This document shows, in pieces, positions 1 through 8,100 of a stretch of DNA of 64,000 nucleotides. Source of the stretch: Lysobacterales bacterium 63-13. GTDB taxonomy: Bacteria > Pseudomonadota > Gammaproteobacteria > Xanthomonadales > Rhodanobacteraceae. Below the pieces are notes generated by a model. The model searched no databases. It worked only from the letters and a program-made list of their open reading frames with translations, and was not told where the DNA came from. The position numbers and the translations under genes are program-made. The DNA lies in NCBI GenBank assembly GCA_001899855.1, contig MKWR01000021.1, positions 1-64,000 of the forward strand. Direction: 5' to 3'. Position 1 is the first letter of the stretch, and each line of letters starts with the position of its first letter.

Positions 1-97
1 AGAAGCCGAGGCAAACTACTACCGGCATCTCGCCAGTCCCGTCGCAATGGCGGCGTGACTTAAACCAAACAGCCTCCACGAAACCCGGGGCGGTTCA
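1..97 (+). mobile_element. Right end of an IS3-family-like insertion sequence interrupting cas9
   Basis: Positions 2-59 on the plus strand read as the last residues of a protein (…NYYRHLASPVAMAA, stop TGA at 57-59), which I take to be the C-terminus of an OrfB-type transposase. After the stop comes a GC-rich stretch whose outer end, read inward from position 97 on the minus strand, begins TGAACCGCCCCGGGTTTCG. That resembles the terminal inverted repeats (TG…CA ends) I know from IS3-family elements. Cas9-like coding sequence resumes immediately at 98. Only this end is present, so the opposite repeat and the target duplication cannot be checked. A contig ending inside a repeated IS would explain why the window starts here. 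The family assignment is from recall of end sequences, not from a search. Confidence 0.6.
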
Positions 98-1905
98 CGA
101 TTGACGCGGACGCCGAGTTTGGTCAGTTCTTCGTCGTAGCGCTCATTGCGGTGTTGGGCTTCGGCTTGACGCTTGCTGATTTCGCGCCGGCGATCGCCCG
201 AAGCACCGAATTCACGGGTCAGTTCGATAATGATTTGATAGGGATGGCCATAACGCTTTATCAACGCATTGACCAATTGCCGCACCTGGTTCAAGCCAAT
301 ATGGACAGTGGGATTTGGGATCTTTCCAAAGCGCCTTTCGTCGTCGTCCCGTGCAGTTGGCTGAGGTGAAGTGTAGCCAACCAGCAACTTTCCGTAATAG
401 GGCAGTTGCTTGAAGATTTCGCCGGTATAGAACCGCGAATGATGCTGGTAGCCCGCGCGCCGAACTGCCTCGTCATAGTTGATCACGTCTCGTTCCAGCT
501 CGGGAACTATTTTGGACAGCGCCTTGAGACTCAGGCTGCCGTAGTCATCCGGCAGATTGAATGACGCAATTGTGCGAGCCTGCGTGGCATCAAACTTTAT
601 CGGGAAAGTGCGCAGGGCATCGGATATGAAGTGGCGCTCAGATTCATCAAAAGTCCCCTTGAGGATTTCATCGCTCGCGTTTGATTGTCCTGGAAGGGCC
701 AGAAGCGCTGCTTCCAAGGTTTCGGCTTGCTCCGCCTGTTCGACAAGAACGGCAATCGCATATTGCTGCTCGGGCGTTAAGGTTTGCCAGCGATCCCCGA
801 TGGCATTCGTTGCGCTGAAACGCGCGGCTACGGCATCACCTCGGAATCCTTTGCGCTTCTCATCTCGACTGAAGTTGAATTCCTTGGAGTTGCGCAAGCC
901 GGCTGCTTTGGCCAAGGCACTGAAGGTCACCAATCCCGGATCATGCGATAGGGTGTCCAACATGGCATTTCGCTCGATGAGCGAGAGGGGTCGGTCACTT
1001 ATCCCATCGCGTACGCGAAGATGGTTCAGATCCTGGAGGATTCGAAAGCGTTGTTGCAGAGGAGCGCAAAGGCGTGCCCGATATTCACTCAACTCGAACT
1101 GGCAACGGCCTGGCTCCACTGGGCGTAGACGTCGCTGAAACAATATGATGTCGCGCAATTGCTCGCGTGCGGATTCGGTGAGTTGGTCGGGATGATGTGC
1201 CTCCTGCGCTGACCATAGTCTGTCGAATTCTTCTTCGACCATTTCGCGCTGAAGATAAAGGACATATTCGCCATCATTGCGTCGACGGCCACGGATGCCG
1301 ACATGCTTGGCTGCTTCGAGCGCGCGGGCCTCGTCCTTGTTGCTTGGATCTTGCCGATCTTTCCGGTATCCCCTTTGCGTGGCGAGATACTCGCCTACGG
1401 TAGCGCAGCCTACGCTGTCGATTCTTTCGCGCAATGCCGCAATTGCGGCATGTACCTTGCCGGCTTCCTTGGCGGCTTCCTCAGTGCGCCCATCCTTGCG
1501 GCTGCTGCGAAATCCGCGTTTGCGACCGAGGTGATATAGGGCGCGACCGAATTCGAACAATGTCAGAACGCCATGCAAGCCTCGCGCTCGCAAAAGATAA
1601 GGGTCCAGTTCCTGCAACTGCTTTCTGGCGACTTGGTCTTTCGGCAGGAAGCCATTGTCGACAAGCGCCATGATCAGCTTATGACGACGTTTGAGCAGTC
1701 GATCGCGGCGGCGGCGCGCCTGCCTGGCTTGCCGGCGATCGGCAGCTCGCGAGGCGAGGGTCTTCGGATCGCGGCCATCCGAGAATATTCGTGAACCCAT
1801 GCGAACAATGGCATCTGGATTGTCGCTTTCGTCCAATCGATAAACACACCAACCGAGCGAGTTCGCACCGAGATCAAGCGCCACGCGATATTTGATATTT
1901 GCCAC
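98..1905 (-). pseudogene. cas9: cas9, type II-C-like, 3' truncated before HNH
   Basis: This encodes the N-terminal two thirds of a CRISPR-associated Cas9 RNA-guided nuclease. The start is GTG at 1905, preceded by AGGGGG five bases upstream. RuvC-I is clear (LDLGANSLGW, residues 10-19), followed by the Arg-rich bridge helix (ASRAADRRQARQARRRRDRL, from about 52), a REC region with GRKRGFRSSRKD, and RuvC-II (IIIELTREF, with the conserved Glu near 561). The linker into HNH (RNERYDEELTKLG) is present. Homology stops at about residue 602, and the reading frame runs through the IS end to a stop at 19-21, giving a 628-residue chimera. HNH, RuvC-III and the PAM-interacting domain are missing, so double-strand cleavage is not expected. 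GC is lower than in neighbouring housekeeping genes, consistent with horizontal acquisition. Type II-C is inferred from the short REC and the tracrRNA form; cas1/cas2 are not visible. Confidence 0.88.
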
Positions 1906-1917
1906 AACAGCCCCCTG

Positions 1918-1946
1918 TTGACGTTCTGATGTGATAAGTGTAACTT
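1918..1946 (+). promoter_or_regulatory. Sigma70-type promoter of the putative tracrRNA
   Basis: TTGACG (1918-1923) and TAACTT (1941-1946) are separated by exactly 17 bases. The predicted transcription start at about 1952-1954 falls at the 5' edge of the anti-repeat-like segment. The promoter sits just upstream of the cas9 start and points away from it. Confidence 0.6.
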
Positions 1947-1951
1947 CAAGC

Positions 1952-2058
1952 GCACTAGCAGATCAGGAAATGCGCTCTTTCCGCTAACAAGCTGATCAGC
2001 CAAAAGCTGAAAGATGCACCAAATCAGACAAAGGCCGAGAAACCGGCCTTTGTCGTTT
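1952..2058 (+). ncRNA. Putative tracrRNA of the type II CRISPR-Cas locus
   Basis: This is a divergent RNA gene next to cas9, about 105 nt long. The first 37 nt (1952-1988) have the layout of a type II-C anti-repeat: a GAAATG bulge-like segment in the middle and CGCTAAC at the 3' side, which would pair with a repeat beginning GTTAGCG. A short hairpin follows (TCAGC 1996-2000, loop CAAAA, GCTGA 2006-2010), then AAGATGCACC, which resembles the CTGAAAAGATGTGCC segment I recall in the Neisseria tracrRNA. It ends in the strong hairpin at 2027-2054. The promoter, size, position and order of elements agree. No array is in the window to confirm the pairing partner, so the call rests on layout and partial similarity. 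Confidence 0.65.
2027..2058 (+). terminator. Rho-independent terminator of the tracrRNA
   Basis: There is a perfect 11-bp stem (GACAAAGGCCG at 2027-2037 with CGGCCTTTGTC at 2044-2054), a six-base loop, and GTTT immediately after it. It ends the putative tracrRNA and matches the terminal hairpin expected of one. Confidence 0.75.
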
Positions 2059-2086
2059 CTATCAACTGCGAATCTCAGGGAGTGAG

Positions 2087-2239
2087 ATGCACGACGAGCG
2101 CATGGTCGACTTGAATCGTGTGTCCGAAGGTTTGCGGTCGGCACTCGCGGGTTTGAATGTTCATGCGCAGCCATGCTGGCCGGGCATGACCTGGCAGCTC
2201 ATCACCAGCTTTCCAATGCTCGCCATCAACTTCTGCTGA
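2087..2239 (+). CDS. Possible 50-residue small protein, unknown
   Basis: This is a short open frame starting ATG at 2087 after AGGGAG. It encodes 50 residues that begin MHDERMVDLNRVSEGL and end in a hydrophobic, Cys-terminated tail (MLAINFC). Its stop overlaps the start of the next small frame as TGATG, the usual form of translational coupling. I recognise no family. It lies between the tracrRNA terminator and the iron permease-like gene and could be chance. Confidence 0.25.
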   Translation: MHDERMVDLNRVSEGLRSALAGLNVHAQPCWPGMTWQLITSFPMLAINFC

Positions 2240-2328
2240 TGCAGGCAATTGTCTGGATTGCCTGGGTCATCTGCGGCGTTGACATGGTTGCGTTGCTGAT
2301 TCCGCCCATCTTCCGCCGCACTGACTGA
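2239..2328 (+). CDS. Possible 29-residue membrane peptide, unknown
   Basis: This frame begins at the ATG that overlaps the preceding stop (TGATG). The peptide is almost wholly hydrophobic from residue 3 to 25 (AIVWIAWVICGVDMVALLIP) and ends FRRTD, so it looks like a single membrane segment with a positively charged tail. Small coupled hydrophobic peptides occur in toxin-antitoxin and stress systems, but nothing here proves expression. Confidence 0.22.
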   Translation: MQAIVWIAWVICGVDMVALLIPPIFRRTD

Positions 2329-2359
2329 TCGTTGCGATCTTGGTACGAGACAAATCGTG

Positions 2360-2752
2360 TCAGATCTGCAGTTCGTCGACGATGCGGCCCCTGCGTGCCT
2401 TGTGCGCCATGGCGGCGTAGTGGGCGCGGTAGCGGTCGAGGGTTTTTTCGTCGAGTTCCTCCAGGTCGAGCAGGGTGTTGTGGGCGAGTTCGGTGACGCG
2501 GATGAGTTCGTCGAGCTTGATCTGCAGCGCGTAGGTGTCGCGGTTTTGCGTGTTCTGGATCAGGAACACCATGAGGAAGGTGATGATCGTGGTGCCGGTG
2601 TTGATGACCAACTGCCAGGTGTCGCTGAAGTGGAAAATCGGGCCGGTGATGATCCAGGCTCCGACAACGCTGGCGGCGAGGCCGAAACACAGCGGTTGGC
2701 CGGTGAAGCGGGCGGCACGCTTGGCGAGTTTGCTGAAGGCACCTTGGCTCAT
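2360..2752 (-). CDS. Low-affinity iron permease family protein
   Basis: This is a 130-residue membrane protein of the low-affinity iron permease family. It has two hydrophobic segments (PLCFGLAASVVGAWIITGPI, about residues 20-39, and VINTGTTIITFLMVFLIQNT, about 48-67), followed by a polar helix rich in acidic residues (IKLDELIRVTELAHNTLLDLEELD). The motif FLMVFLIQNTQNRD is typical of the family. I chose the ATG at 2752, which has GGAG eight bases upstream; longer frames start in non-conserved sequence. Despite the name, iron transport is poorly proven for bacterial members. The gene is divergent from maf. Confidence 0.8.
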   Translation of the reverse strand: MSQGAFSKLAKRAARFTGQPLCFGLAASVVGAWIITGPIFHFSDTWQLVINTGTTIITFLMVFLIQNTQNRDTYALQIKLDELIRVTELAHNTLLDLEELDEKTLDRYRAHYAAMAHKARRGRIVDELQI

Positions 2753-2898
2753 TTCTGTCTCCATTGGCGGATGCTGCGGGGTTTCCCAAGTATGTGCGCA
2801 GCGCCTGCATCGCGCCCGCCCGCGAACCGGGTTCGCCGGAACTCGCCGCGGGGGCGGTGCGTCTGGCACTCTGGCATGTCCCGGATCGGATCACCGTC

Positions 2899-3507
<609 letters not shown>

Positions 3508-3582
3508 CGTGCTTGCGGCATTCGACAACATGCGCTCGCCCCAGCTATAAAACGCTTCAACTTCTTGTGCCAACACCTTGTC

Positions 3583-5061
3583 GTGACCGAAGAAATCCTG
3601 ATCAACGTGACCCCGCGCGAAACCCGCGTTGCGCTGGTCGAGAACGGCATGCTGCAAGAGATGCATATCGAGCGTGCAAGCCGGCGCGGTTATGTCGGCA
3701 ATGTGTACAAAGGCAAGGTCAGCCGGGTCATGCCGGGCATGCAGGCGGCGTTCGTCGAAATCGGGCTGGACCGGGCCGCGTTCCTGCATGCCTCGGACAT
3801 CGTCCGTCCGCAGAACGTCCTGCTTGGCGAAAATGCCGAGTCGGCCACGCCGGCGACACCACCGATCAACGATCTTCTGCGTGATGGCCAGGAGATCGTG
3901 GTGCAGGTGGTCAAGGATCCGATCGGCAGCAAGGGCGCGCGCCTGACCACGCATCTGTCGATTCCTTCGCGTTACCTGGTGCTGCTTCCGTACAGCACCG
4001 TGCTTGGCGTGTCGGTGCGCATCGAGGATGAAACCGAGCGCATGCGCCTGAAGGAGATCCTCGCCGAGACCATCGGCGAAAACCCGCTCGGCTACATCGT
4101 GCGCACGAATGCCGAAGGACAAAGCCGCGAGGCCCTGTGCGAGGACATCGACTACCTCGGCAAGCAGTGGAGTGCCTTGCAGCAACGCATTGCCACGGCC
4201 AAGGTCGGCAAGCGCGTCTACGAGGACCTGCCACTGGCCCTGCGCGCATTGCGCGACCTCATGCGCCCGACCATCGAGCGCGTGCGCATCGATTCACGCG
4301 AGACACTCGATCGCGCCCTCGAATTCACCGGCCAGTTCATGCCCGATCTGGTCGAACGCCTGGAGCACTATCCGGGCGAGCGCCCGGTGTTCGATCTTTA
4401 CGGCATCGAGGACGAGATCCAGCGTGCGCTGAAGAAGGAGGTGCCGCTGAAATCCGGTGGCTACCTGGTCGTCGACCAGACCGAGGCGATGACCACGATC
4501 GACGTCAACACCGGCAGTTACCTGGGCACGCGCAATCTCGAGGAGACCGTCTATCGCACCAATCTCGAGGCGGCACAGGCGGCGGCGCGGCAACTGCGCC
4601 TGCGCAACCTTGGCGGCATCATCATCATCGATTTCATCGACATGATCGACGAGGAACACCAGCGCCAGGTCATCCGCCAACTGGAAAAATCGCTGGTCCG
4701 CGACCACGCCAAGACCACCGTCTATGAAATGTCGCCGCTGGGCCTGGTCGAGATGACGCGCAAGCGCACCACGGAAAGCCTGGAGCGGCAGCTTTGCGAA
4801 CCTTGTCCGGCATGCAGCGGACGCGGCTCGATCAAGACGGCGGAAACCGTGACCTACGAGATATTCCGCGAGATCACCCGCGCGGTGCGCCAGTTCGATG
4901 CGGAAAAGCTGCTGGTGCTGGCGGCGAAGGATGTGGTCGTGCGCATCCTCGACGAGGATTCCACGGCCGTGGCGGAACTCGAGGAGTTCATCGGCAAGAC
5001 CATCCGCTTCCAGCCCGAAGAACACTATTCGCAGGAGCAGTTCGATGTCGTCCTGCTTTGA
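3583..5061 (+). CDS. rng: Ribonuclease G
   Basis: This is a 492-residue RNase E/G family endoribonuclease (E. coli Rng has 489). It matures the 5' end of 16S rRNA and cleaves AU-rich single-stranded RNA. The N-terminus EILINVTPRETRVALVENG, the S1 domain (GNVYKGKVSRVMPGMQAAFVEIGLDRAAFLHASDI), the catalytic DNase I-like part (TTIDVNTG and IIIDFIDMID, with metal-binding Asp residues) and the zinc-link Cys motif (CEPCPACSGRG) are all visible. The start is most likely GTG 3583, matching the E. coli N-terminus; TTG 3565 would add six residues. It lacks the long C-terminal degradosome scaffold of RNase E. It lies between maf and yhdP, the usual order. Confidence 0.95.
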   Translation: MTEEILINVTPRETRVALVENGMLQEMHIERASRRGYVGNVYKGKVSRVMPGMQAAFVEIGLDRAAFLHASDIVRPQNVLLGENAESATPATPPINDLLRDGQEIVVQVVKDPIGSKGARLTTHLSIPSRYLVLLPYSTVLGVSVRIEDETERMRLKEILAETIGENPLGYIVRTNAEGQSREALCEDIDYLGKQWSALQQRIATAKVGKRVYEDLPLALRALRDLMRPTIERVRIDSRETLDRALEFTGQFMPDLVERLEHYPGERPVFDLYGIEDEIQRALKKEVPLKSGGYLVVDQTEAMTTIDVNTGSYLGTRNLEETVYRTNLEAAQAAARQLRLRNLGGIIIIDFIDMIDEEHQRQVIRQLEKSLVRDHAKTTVYEMSPLGLVEMTRKRTTESLERQLCEPCPACSGRGSIKTAETVTYEIFREITRAVRQFDAEKLLVLAAKDVVVRILDEDSTAVAELEEFIGKTIRFQPEEHYSQEQFDVVLL

Positions 5062-5135
5062 CGGATTGGCGGGAACGAACTTGCGTTGCCGATGAATGCC
5101 TTGATCGACAGCATTTCGCGCAACGGCCGTTGCCC

Positions 5136-8100
5136 ATGACGCCGCTGCGCCGACGCCTGCGCAAGCTGCGCTTCTTCGTGCAGGCGATGTTCGTCACCCT
5201 GGTGATTTCCGCCGCGGTCGTCGTCGCCATCGCGCAACTGGCCTTGCCCTGGCTGGCCGACAATCCGCGCCGCGTCGAGGCCTGGCTGTCGGCACAGTTG
5301 CAGCGGCCGGTGAGCATCGGCCAGCTCAGTGGCATGTGGACGCAGGCCGGGCCAAGGCTGGTTCTCGATGACCTGCGCATTGGCGCAACCGCCGCGGGAG
5401 ACGCCGAGCTGCGCTTGCCGCGTTCGGAGCTGGCAATCAACCTGTTTGCGCCCTTGCGCAAGAACCTGGCCTGGAACGAGTTTCGCGTTTTCGGGCCGGA
5501 CCTGGCCTTGAGCCGGGCCGCGGATGGACAGTGGAAGCTGCGCGGCCTGGAACTCGAAGGCAGTGGCGGCGGCAGTGGGGGATCGATGGGCTCGCTGGGT
5601 GCCGTCGTCCTCGTCGACATGAAGCTGGCCGTGCGTGCGCCCAGTCACGCCATCGACCTGGATTTGCGCATCCCCGAATTGCGCGTGGTCAACCACGGGC
5701 GCATCACGCGCGTGCTCGGCCAGGTCGGCACCGGCAACAGCAAGTCATCGCCCTTGTCGCTGGTTGCCGACATTGACCTTGGCGAAGGCTCCGGGCGCGT
5801 GTATGTGGCCGGTCGCGAGGTCGACATCGGCGAGTTGAGCGGGGCGCATGCGCCGGGCGGAATCCGCGTCGTCGCGGCAAAGGGCGACCTGCAGTTCTGG
5901 GCCACCTGGCAGGGCGGCCTGCTCAAGGAGACGCAGCTCAAGCTGGATCTTGGCCAGACAATCCTGCAGGCCAGCAGCGAGGTCAAGGTCGATGACACGC
6001 TCAGCGTGCTGCCGCGCAGTGCGCTTGATCGGCTGGCCTTGAGCGCGCGCTGGCAACGCCAGCCGACGGGCTGGCGTTTCGACCTGGCCGATTATTCCGC
6101 CGGCGCTGCCGATGCGTCGGCGACCGGCGGCCGCGTGATCGCCGAGTACACCAGCGCTGGACAACCTTCCACCCATGTTCGCGCCAGCACGCTGGAACTG
6201 GGCGCGTTCGGCACGCTGGCGATGCTCGGCAACCTGGCGCCCGAGCGCCTGCGCCAATGGTTGTATCTGGCCAATCCGCACTGTGCGGTCGATGCGCTCG
6301 ACCTGCGCTGGTCGAGTCTGCAGGACTTCAATGTCGACGCGAAGATCTCGCGCTGTGGCAGTCGTCCGGCGGCGGCGATCCCGGGAATCGAGCGCCTTGC
6401 AGGGCGCGTGCGCGGCGACAACCAGGCGCTGTGGCTGCAACTGCTCGATCAGCAAACCCGCATTGACTACCCGAAGGTGTTCCGCAAGCCCTTCGTGTTC
6501 ACGCAATTCGGTGGCGACGTGGTGGCCTGGCCCGATGAGGAGGGCTGGCAGCTGCGCAGTCATCGCTTCGACCTGGCAGGCGATGGCTTTGCCGCAAGCC
6601 TGCACGGCGGTGCCGACATGCAGGGCGACGGCACGCGGCCGGCGCTGGATGTGTACGCGCGGATCAGCGACGGCACGGTCGATGCCGCGAAACTATTCTG
6701 GCCAGTCAACGTGATGCCGCCGGCAACCGTCGAATGGCTGGATCGCGCGCTCGCTGTCGGCCGCATCAGCGAAGGCCATGCCCTGGTCCGCGGCGATCTC
6801 GACAGTTGGCCATTCGATGACAATGCCGGCCGCTTCGATGCGCGCGCCGAGTTGCAGGGGCTGAAGCTGGATTTCCTGCGCGATTGGCCGAGTGGCGAGG
6901 ATCTCGCGGTCAGCGCGCGCTTCATCAACAACGGCATGCAAGCCACCGCGCATGCGGGCAGCTCGATGGCGATCGCACTCGCCGAGGTGGACGCCACGAT
7001 CGCCAGTTTCCACGAGCCGCTGCTGGAACTCTCGATCGATGGCCAGGCCAACGGCAAGGATCTGCTGTCCTATCTGCGCGCGACCCCGGTGGGTGCCGAG
7101 CATGCCGATTACCTGCGTGGCCTTGGCATCGGCGGCAAGGGCGTCGTGCATATCGATCTGGATGTGCCGCTCAAGCACAGCGAGGACATGACCCTCGATG
7201 GCTACGTGGACCTGAGCGCGGCACAACTCGACGAACGGACCTGGGGCCTGCACTTTGCCGAGGCTGCGGGTCGCGTGCGCATTGCCCGGGACGGGGTGCT
7301 GGCCGATGCCCTCGATGCGCGCCTCGACGGAATGCCGGTCCGCCTCGGCATCGCCATCGGCAGCTCGGCCACGGATCCGGACAATTCCTTTGAAGCGAAT
7401 CTTCGCGGCGTGCTGCCGGCGGCGGCCGTCTTTGCCAGGGCAACCGACCTTGCCCCGTCCATGGCGAGTTTTCCCGGCCAGGCCGAATGGAACATCGATC
7501 TGGCCATCGGCTCCGATGCCGGTGCCGCCAGGGGGCGCAAGTCGTTGCGCCTGCAAAGCGATCTGCAGGGCATCGCCATCAATCTCCCGGCACCGCTCGG
7601 CAAGCCGGCCGAGGCACGGCTGCCCTTCCTGCTGCAACTGGAAATGCCGCTGGTCGGGCAGCCGTTCAGCGCCAGCCTTGGCGACATCCTGCACATTGGC
7701 GGACGCCTGCCGGGGCCGGACGGGCCGCTTGCGGCCAGGCTCGATCTCGGCCCGGCCACGGCCTCGAACGACGTGCCGGCGAGCGGCCTGCTCATCGGCG
7801 GCCATGCGAAATCCCTGGATGCGGGTGGCTGGATCGGCTTGTTCAACACGGGTGGCGGCGGTGGCGAGCTGTTGCAGGGCGTGCATGTCACTGTCGACGA
7901 GCTGCTCATGGCCGGGCGCAGCTTTGCCAACCTGAGCCTGGCGCTGGTTCCGGACGGCGAGGCGCTGAAGATCGACATCACCGGCGACTCGCTGCAAGGC
8001 AATCTCAGCGTGCCGACGGTCGATCTGCGCCGACGCGGCATCACCGCGCAGATGCAGCGCGTGCACTGGCCGGATCCCATGCCTGGCAACGAGGGTGGCG

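Follow-up and report, generated by a model that had tools for sequence, protein, structure and literature searches.

Positions 1953 to about 2058 of the window (the whole 64,000-nucleotide stretch of DNA analysed here, which is the start of contig C21 in a 3.75 Mb genome of 36 contigs) in all likelihood encode the tracrRNA of a type II-C locus whose cas9 gene is split by an insertion sequence (IS), with the guide RNA parts probably left stranded. That the stretch is the tracrRNA gene of a bacterial CRISPR-Cas9 system, in itself very probable, is supported at the sequence level by its pairing with the CRISPR repeat, the change of anti-repeat together with repeat in distant relatives, the promoter pattern, the 3′ hairpin and the gene order. 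The features of the locus are as follows, in window coordinates unless a contig is named.

1–97, no strand assigned: end of a multicopy insertion sequence, with terminal TGAACCGCCCCGGG, that cuts cas9
98–1905, minus strand: cas9, N-terminal part (602 whole codons), oriented divergently to the tracrRNA gene
1918–1946, plus strand: predicted tracrRNA promoter, TTGACG (1918–1923), 17 nt, TAACTT (1941–1946), with the start expected at about 1953
1953 to about 2058, plus strand: putative tracrRNA gene with its own promoter and its own terminator, divergent from cas9
about 1953–1988, plus strand: anti-repeat, in which the 20 bases 1959–1978 recur unchanged in the CRISPR repeat on contig C14
1989–2020, plus strand: nexus region AAGC...GATGCACC, with inner hairpin TCAGC (1996–2000)/GCTGA (2006–2010)
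2027–2054, plus strand: predicted intrinsic terminator, a perfect 11-bp stem with a 6-nt loop and a weak T-tract
contig C14, L009:81–1524: HNH and RuvC-III part of cas9, the second half of the split gene

The first-pass annotation had proposed that an array should be sought in the same genome and its repeat tested for pairing with 1952–1988, to which it was expected to be largely complementary. An HNH_4 search of the genome led to such an array on contig C14, where the second part of cas9 at the contig start is followed by cas1, cas2 and then the array, which has 37-nt repeats and spacers mostly of 30 nt and is adjoined by a DUF3025 gene. A second HNH_4 match, on contig C3, was judged to be a short, unrelated open reading frame (ORF) and discounted. 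The repeat, written as crRNA, is GTTCCGGCCAGAGCGCATTTCCTGATCTGTTACGCTC, and its core on the tracrRNA strand, CAGATCAGGAAATGCGCTCT, occurs 20 times in the whole genome at up to three mismatches: 19 times in the array (18 exact, one mismatched) and once, exactly, at window 1959–1978. The first-pass annotation had named an array whose repeat lacks this complementarity as refuting, and that outcome did not arise. The complementarity is extensive, with a predicted repeat/anti-repeat duplex of -51.1 kcal/mol and 33 of the 37 repeat bases paired when the anti-repeat stretch is taken from 1945, compared with -17.7 ± 3.1 kcal/mol (minimum -30.2) for 2000 dinucleotide shuffles of the anti-repeat; limited to bases from the expected RNA start at 1953, the duplex still reaches -46.9 kcal/mol. 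The expected repeat start GTTAGCG, by contrast, was wrong from the fourth base, the actual start being GTTCCGG, in which GTT and CGG pair and small internal loops intervene before the long core; a pattern search for GTTAGCG returned the window itself and one unrelated place. Pairing with the tracrRNA demands that the array be read against the cas genes, which sets the probable crRNA direction. Two places are altered in the cas2-distal repeat, whose pairing energy is -46.7 as against -51.1 kcal/mol. A run of 14 N within the array (L009:3933–3946) leaves one spacer and part of one repeat unreadable.

The genes beside the array identify the class of the system. Both cas1 and cas2 are recognized by family models, Cas1 being of the NMENI type, and at the neighbouring genes examined the set consists of cas9, cas1 and cas2, with no csn2 and no cas4, and a compact Cas9, as in type II-C. 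Cas9 matches to the N-terminal part (E≤0.001) were found in 8 of 233 genomes of the family, four of them (own genome included) at 65–100% identity. The other three (G033, G152 and G223) have uninterrupted cas9 together with cas1 and cas2, by family models, an identical or near-identical repeat, and the same divergent RNA upstream of cas9; the uninterrupted Cas9 proteins of relatives measure about 1060 amino acids. From a wider contig collection, the best 80 of 179 Cas9 relatives were kept; a first scan of that collection with the half Cas9 as query confirmed no relative, and none was found in viral contigs. The closest seven among these best 80 of 179 share 59–75% identity with the G033 Cas9 and include Rhodanobacter lindaniclasticus and a Rudaea metagenome-assembled genome (MAG), the other five being MAGs labelled Proteobacteria, Thiobacillus, Lysobacteraceae, Nitratireductor and Rhizobiales. 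The close sets of Cas9 and tracrRNA at L038–L044, with repeats where the contig reaches them, lie in contigs of different proteobacterial labels, which suggests either horizontal transfer or mis-binned MAG contigs. Thirteen loci were inspected, namely 11 of the 80 (L038–L047 and L049; L048 was left out), the window and G033, and a divergent RNA lies upstream of cas9 in all of them.

Comparison of these loci bears on the possibility that there is no RNA gene here and that promoter, hairpin and terminator are chance matches. The hexamers TTGACG and TAACTT are present with the 17-nt spacing that the first-pass annotation had given, and match the consensus at 5/6 and 3/6 positions, respectively (8/12 in total). 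A consensus promoter scan of window 1–7000 at a threshold of 9/12, under which this promoter falls, returned no site (shuffles, mean 1.4). By consensus score alone the promoter is within chance, and it is accepted through conservation: TTGAC[G/A/C], 17 nt (18 in one locus) and TA...T recur in 12 of the 13 loci (window and G033 included), a count to be read in the light of the mutual relatedness of the loci and made without a shuffled control, and in these 12 the pattern ends 13–14 nt before one fixed position of the anti-repeat. Only L046 is without it. It is this recurrence at a fixed position that makes the promoter credible despite its weak consensus. The terminator stem, perfect over 11 bp as had been noted, is the longest of eight terminator-like sites in window 1–7000, a number near shuffle level (mean 6.7), and its T-tract, GTTTCTAT, is poor. 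Against chance stand the 20-base identity with the repeat, a duplex energy far outside that of the shuffles and the conservation in relatives, which together make the absence of an RNA gene hardly conceivable.

Downstream of the anti-repeat, the predicted fold of the window sequence shows a nexus-like hairpin followed by a 3′ hairpin, and the TCAGC/GCTGA hairpin is present as described earlier. All 13 sequences folded give a predicted 3′ hairpin, whereas their predicted nexus folds vary. An extra inner nexus segment, able to form a hairpin, is found in 7 of the 13 tracrRNAs (window, G033, Rhodanobacter, WH4.bin29, Thiobacillus, Lysobacteraceae and Rubrivivax), and the other six have a shorter form; because these six include Rudaea, of the same bacterial family as the window, nexus length appears quick to change. 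A nexus regular expression run over 80 upstream regions was not discriminating (43/80, compared with 17/80 when shuffled and 24/80 on the other strand). On alignment A4, RNAalifold gave a consensus fold in which anti-repeat and nexus pair with each other, with little backing from covariation; this fold neither supports nor excludes the guide-bound one and was set aside.

By sequence, the putative RNA gene is part of the cas9 locus and separate from the array, and it has a terminator and a promoter of its own, the latter recognized by conservation and not by consensus score. On its far side are an iron permease gene and a Maf gene. A mechanical ORF of 166 amino acids (1674–2174, minus strand) overlaps the stretch and is taken as spurious. 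Rfam returned no matches in the 64-kb window at gathering scores, and at E≤5 four weak hits in window 1900–2080, all unrelated.

Repeat and anti-repeat appear to have changed together between groups of loci. The clearest case is L045, the locus with the most divergent repeat, whose anti-repeat pairs at -51.3 kcal/mol with its own repeat and at -31.4 kcal/mol or weaker with the nine others tested; conversely, anti-repeats of the window group reach only about -21 kcal/mol with the L045 repeat. Within the window group, repeats are interchangeable. Indeed, the window anti-repeat pairs at -49.3 and -48.2 kcal/mol with the repeats of G033 and L046, compared with -46.9 with its own, and the L047 anti-repeat pairs slightly better with the L049 repeat than with its own. 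In a swap test on the 70 of 80 loci in which a script found arrays, with 15 swapped repeats per locus, pairing with the own repeat exceeded the mean of the swapped ones in 69 of 70. The one locus that departs is L111, where the array lies at a distance of 10.7 kb and its repeat is dissimilar. In 29 of 70 loci, at least one of the 15 swapped repeats pairs as well as or better than the own repeat, and for 6 of 70 pairing is strongest in the opposite orientation, so that the test speaks more for resemblance within groups than for exact matching; it supports co-variation between groups, short of a proven tracrRNA at every locus. R1, a sequence-only model of the RNA built without structure, matches upstream of cas9 at E<0.001 in 14 of 81 loci searched, seven of these 14 being training sequences.

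The first-pass annotation had described a complete type II-C locus. This description fails, because an IS end interrupts cas9 at window 97 and leaves the type II-C picture incomplete here; the uninterrupted cas9 of a working system is lacking in this genome. The start of contig C14 (L009:1–80) is the opposite IS end, and the ends carry TGAACCGCCCCGGG on both sides. The break, at window 97 and L009:80, falls just before the HNH domain. The trinucleotide TCG is common to both cas9 flanks of the IS, and the reconstructed empty site, ...GVRVN-RENRL..., is in frame with no residue missing relative to the relatives, giving 1083 codons with the stop summed across the break. The IS ends are multicopy in the genome, the C14-type end being present at 10 places and the other at five (cas9 copy included). 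The assembly is interrupted at this multicopy element, so that C21 and C14 are putatively joined, through what would be a single IS copy; the copy inside cas9 is unassembled. An 87-amino-acid frame in the expected direction beside a 91%-identical IS end on contig C1 matches the IS3 family transposase model NF033516 (E 7e-9, below the model cut-off), and by this one fragment beside a related end the element is tentatively placed in the IS3 family. An ORF with an rve transposase domain at the same place, considered as the IS gene, was dropped, as it sits on the other strand.

The working conclusion is that Cas9 has been inactivated by the insertion. Since the IS splits cas9 before HNH, the guide RNA parts are probably without a working nuclease, and the CRISPR system of this genome probably no longer works. 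Could the two Cas9 parts be made separately and associate as a split Cas9 with intact tracrRNA and crRNAs, so that the locus still works? The break just before the HNH domain, RuvC and HNH motifs that look kept on both parts in an alignment and the continued presence of cas1, cas2 and the array would fit such an arrangement. The IS end beside the C-terminal part, however, reads away, against cas9, so that the element's own gene should provide no read-through. That C-terminal part has a TTG (L009:94) as its first listed start, and insertion is the simplest route to loss. We therefore regard a locus still at work as very unlikely. A natural split Cas9, in which an N-terminal part (RuvC-I, REC and RuvC-II) and an HNH/RuvC-III part would be assembled by tracrRNA/crRNA for cutting or for binding only, seems highly improbable. 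Returning to inactivation by the insertion, the undamaged state of tracrRNA, cas1, cas2 and array suggests that the event may be recent.

In type II systems, trimming by RNase III followed by Cas9 loading is established. The same route can be proposed for this RNA, whose transcription, processing and binding by Cas9 we infer from sequence. Transcription of the tracrRNA would begin at its own promoter, lead away from cas9 and stop at its own terminator; the 5′ part of the RNA would pair with the repeat in pre-crRNA made from the C14 array; the duplex would be trimmed by RNase III; and the trimmed duplex, together with the nexus and 3′ hairpin, would be loaded into Cas9.

The array may retain a record of earlier encounters. 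It has 17 readable spacers, one interval holding N, and one of the 17 finds a full-length target among the matches compared (family-genome matches at loci L122–L129 and L134–L149, ungapped, with up to eight mismatches shown):

L122:1501–1531 (G180:C11:27436–27466): protospacer-like match of spacer 10 in a phage terminase large subunit gene

All 30 bases of spacer 10 align in G180 with two mismatches (E 1.6e-5 for that genome; 233 searched), and the target gene encodes a terminase large subunit (PHROG 15, E 8e-213), which fits anti-phage memory. The 3′ flank of the target begins CAGGGCAC; with one target site only, a PAM is not callable. Besides spacer 10, the best targets of the array among the matches compared have five mismatches (spacers 5 and 14). 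A match of spacer 11 in G219 (E 2.7e-4) needs a one-base gap. Phage and plasmid collections gave no target for spacers of the C14 array; the spacers of the G033 array gave four weak matches (E 0.09–0.3) and those of the L039 array no target at E≤0.1. As for self-targeting spacers, an own-genome search at E≤0.01 gave, besides the array, only the tracrRNA.

An RNA model search of the 233 family genomes, with strict filters by which weak matches are lost, gave matches in seven: the four cas9 loci, G010, G164 and G022, the last being terminator-like only. Taken with a further stretch in G217, the candidate remnants are:

G010, L160:6842–6926: nexus and terminator, plus roughly half of an anti-repeat
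G164, L161:6550–6605: nexus and terminator only
G217, L123:1470–1530: lone repeat-like stretch beside a terminator-like remnant

None of G010, G164, G022 and G217 has a Cas9 match (E≤0.001, with the N-terminal part as the query). The stretches in G010, G164 and G217 may be remains of lost II-C loci, and as such suggest that parts of these loci can outlive cas9. They also lend some colour to the idea that the RNA of the window is itself no more than a relic, or that it has taken on a different regulatory function since cas9 was broken; in Neisseria a regulatory RNA associated with CRISPR, the scaRNA, is reported (PMC13431127). The window copy, however, keeps its promoter, full anti-repeat, nexus and terminator together with a matching array, and nothing was found pointing to another target, which makes such a relic or change of role unlikely. 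The preferred reading remains that of a tracrRNA whose nuclease has probably been lost to the IS.

Comparison with known systems places the locus within type II-C. It shares with Neisseria meningitidis a Cas1 of the NMENI type, and its nexus presumably resembles that of Neisseria, from which its repeat and anti-repeat, we assume, differ. Also in distinction from N. meningitidis, the system has a 37-nt repeat and an inner nexus hairpin, and the best PDB matches are 9ar4 for the full Cas9 of a relative and 21dz for the window half; 6kc8 and 6jdq, labelled Cas9 and which we take to be NmeCas9, also rank high for that same full-length protein. The closest parallel by description is the II-C locus of Bordetella pseudohinzii, for which PMC4624362 gives the order cas9-cas1-cas2 with the array downstream, a terminal repeat with changes, and a putative tracrRNA divergent upstream of cas9 with a predicted promoter and stem-loop terminator. 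Gene order, divergent tracrRNA and altered terminal repeat are alike here, but whereas cas gene expression and mature crRNAs are reported for B. pseudohinzii, cas9 of the window is IS-split. In PMC12080349, II-C arrays acquire spacers at the last repeat and have a mutated extra repeat; the C14 array is likewise read against the cas genes with a mutated cas2-distal repeat, and its acquisition end would, by comparison with those arrays, be the corresponding one. Two further papers state that the position of the tracrRNA varies within type II-C (PMC3936727) and that tracrRNAs cluster with Cas9 clades (PMC7606464). Searches of open-licence literature returned nothing on type II-C Cas9 in Rhodanobacter, on the tracrRNA of type II-C in Xanthomonadales or on an IS-interrupted II-C cas9, and the papers listed for broader queries on Cas9 in these groups bear titles that look unrelated. 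The architecture of the locus is already known from B. pseudohinzii (PMC4624362), and the tracrRNA described here is a further example, in a damaged locus.

The analysis settles, as far as sequence allows, a guide RNA annotation that Rfam misses, and yields matched sets of tracrRNA, repeat and Cas9 from a II-C clade found in contigs of several proteobacterial labels. A modest addition comes from the tracrRNA scars of those relatives in which no matching Cas9 was found. The locus itself is apparently a CRISPR system caught at the point of loss, with its nuclease broken, its guide parts intact and scars in its relatives; scars and broken locus together would make the loss of CRISPR traceable in the Rhodanobacteraceae.
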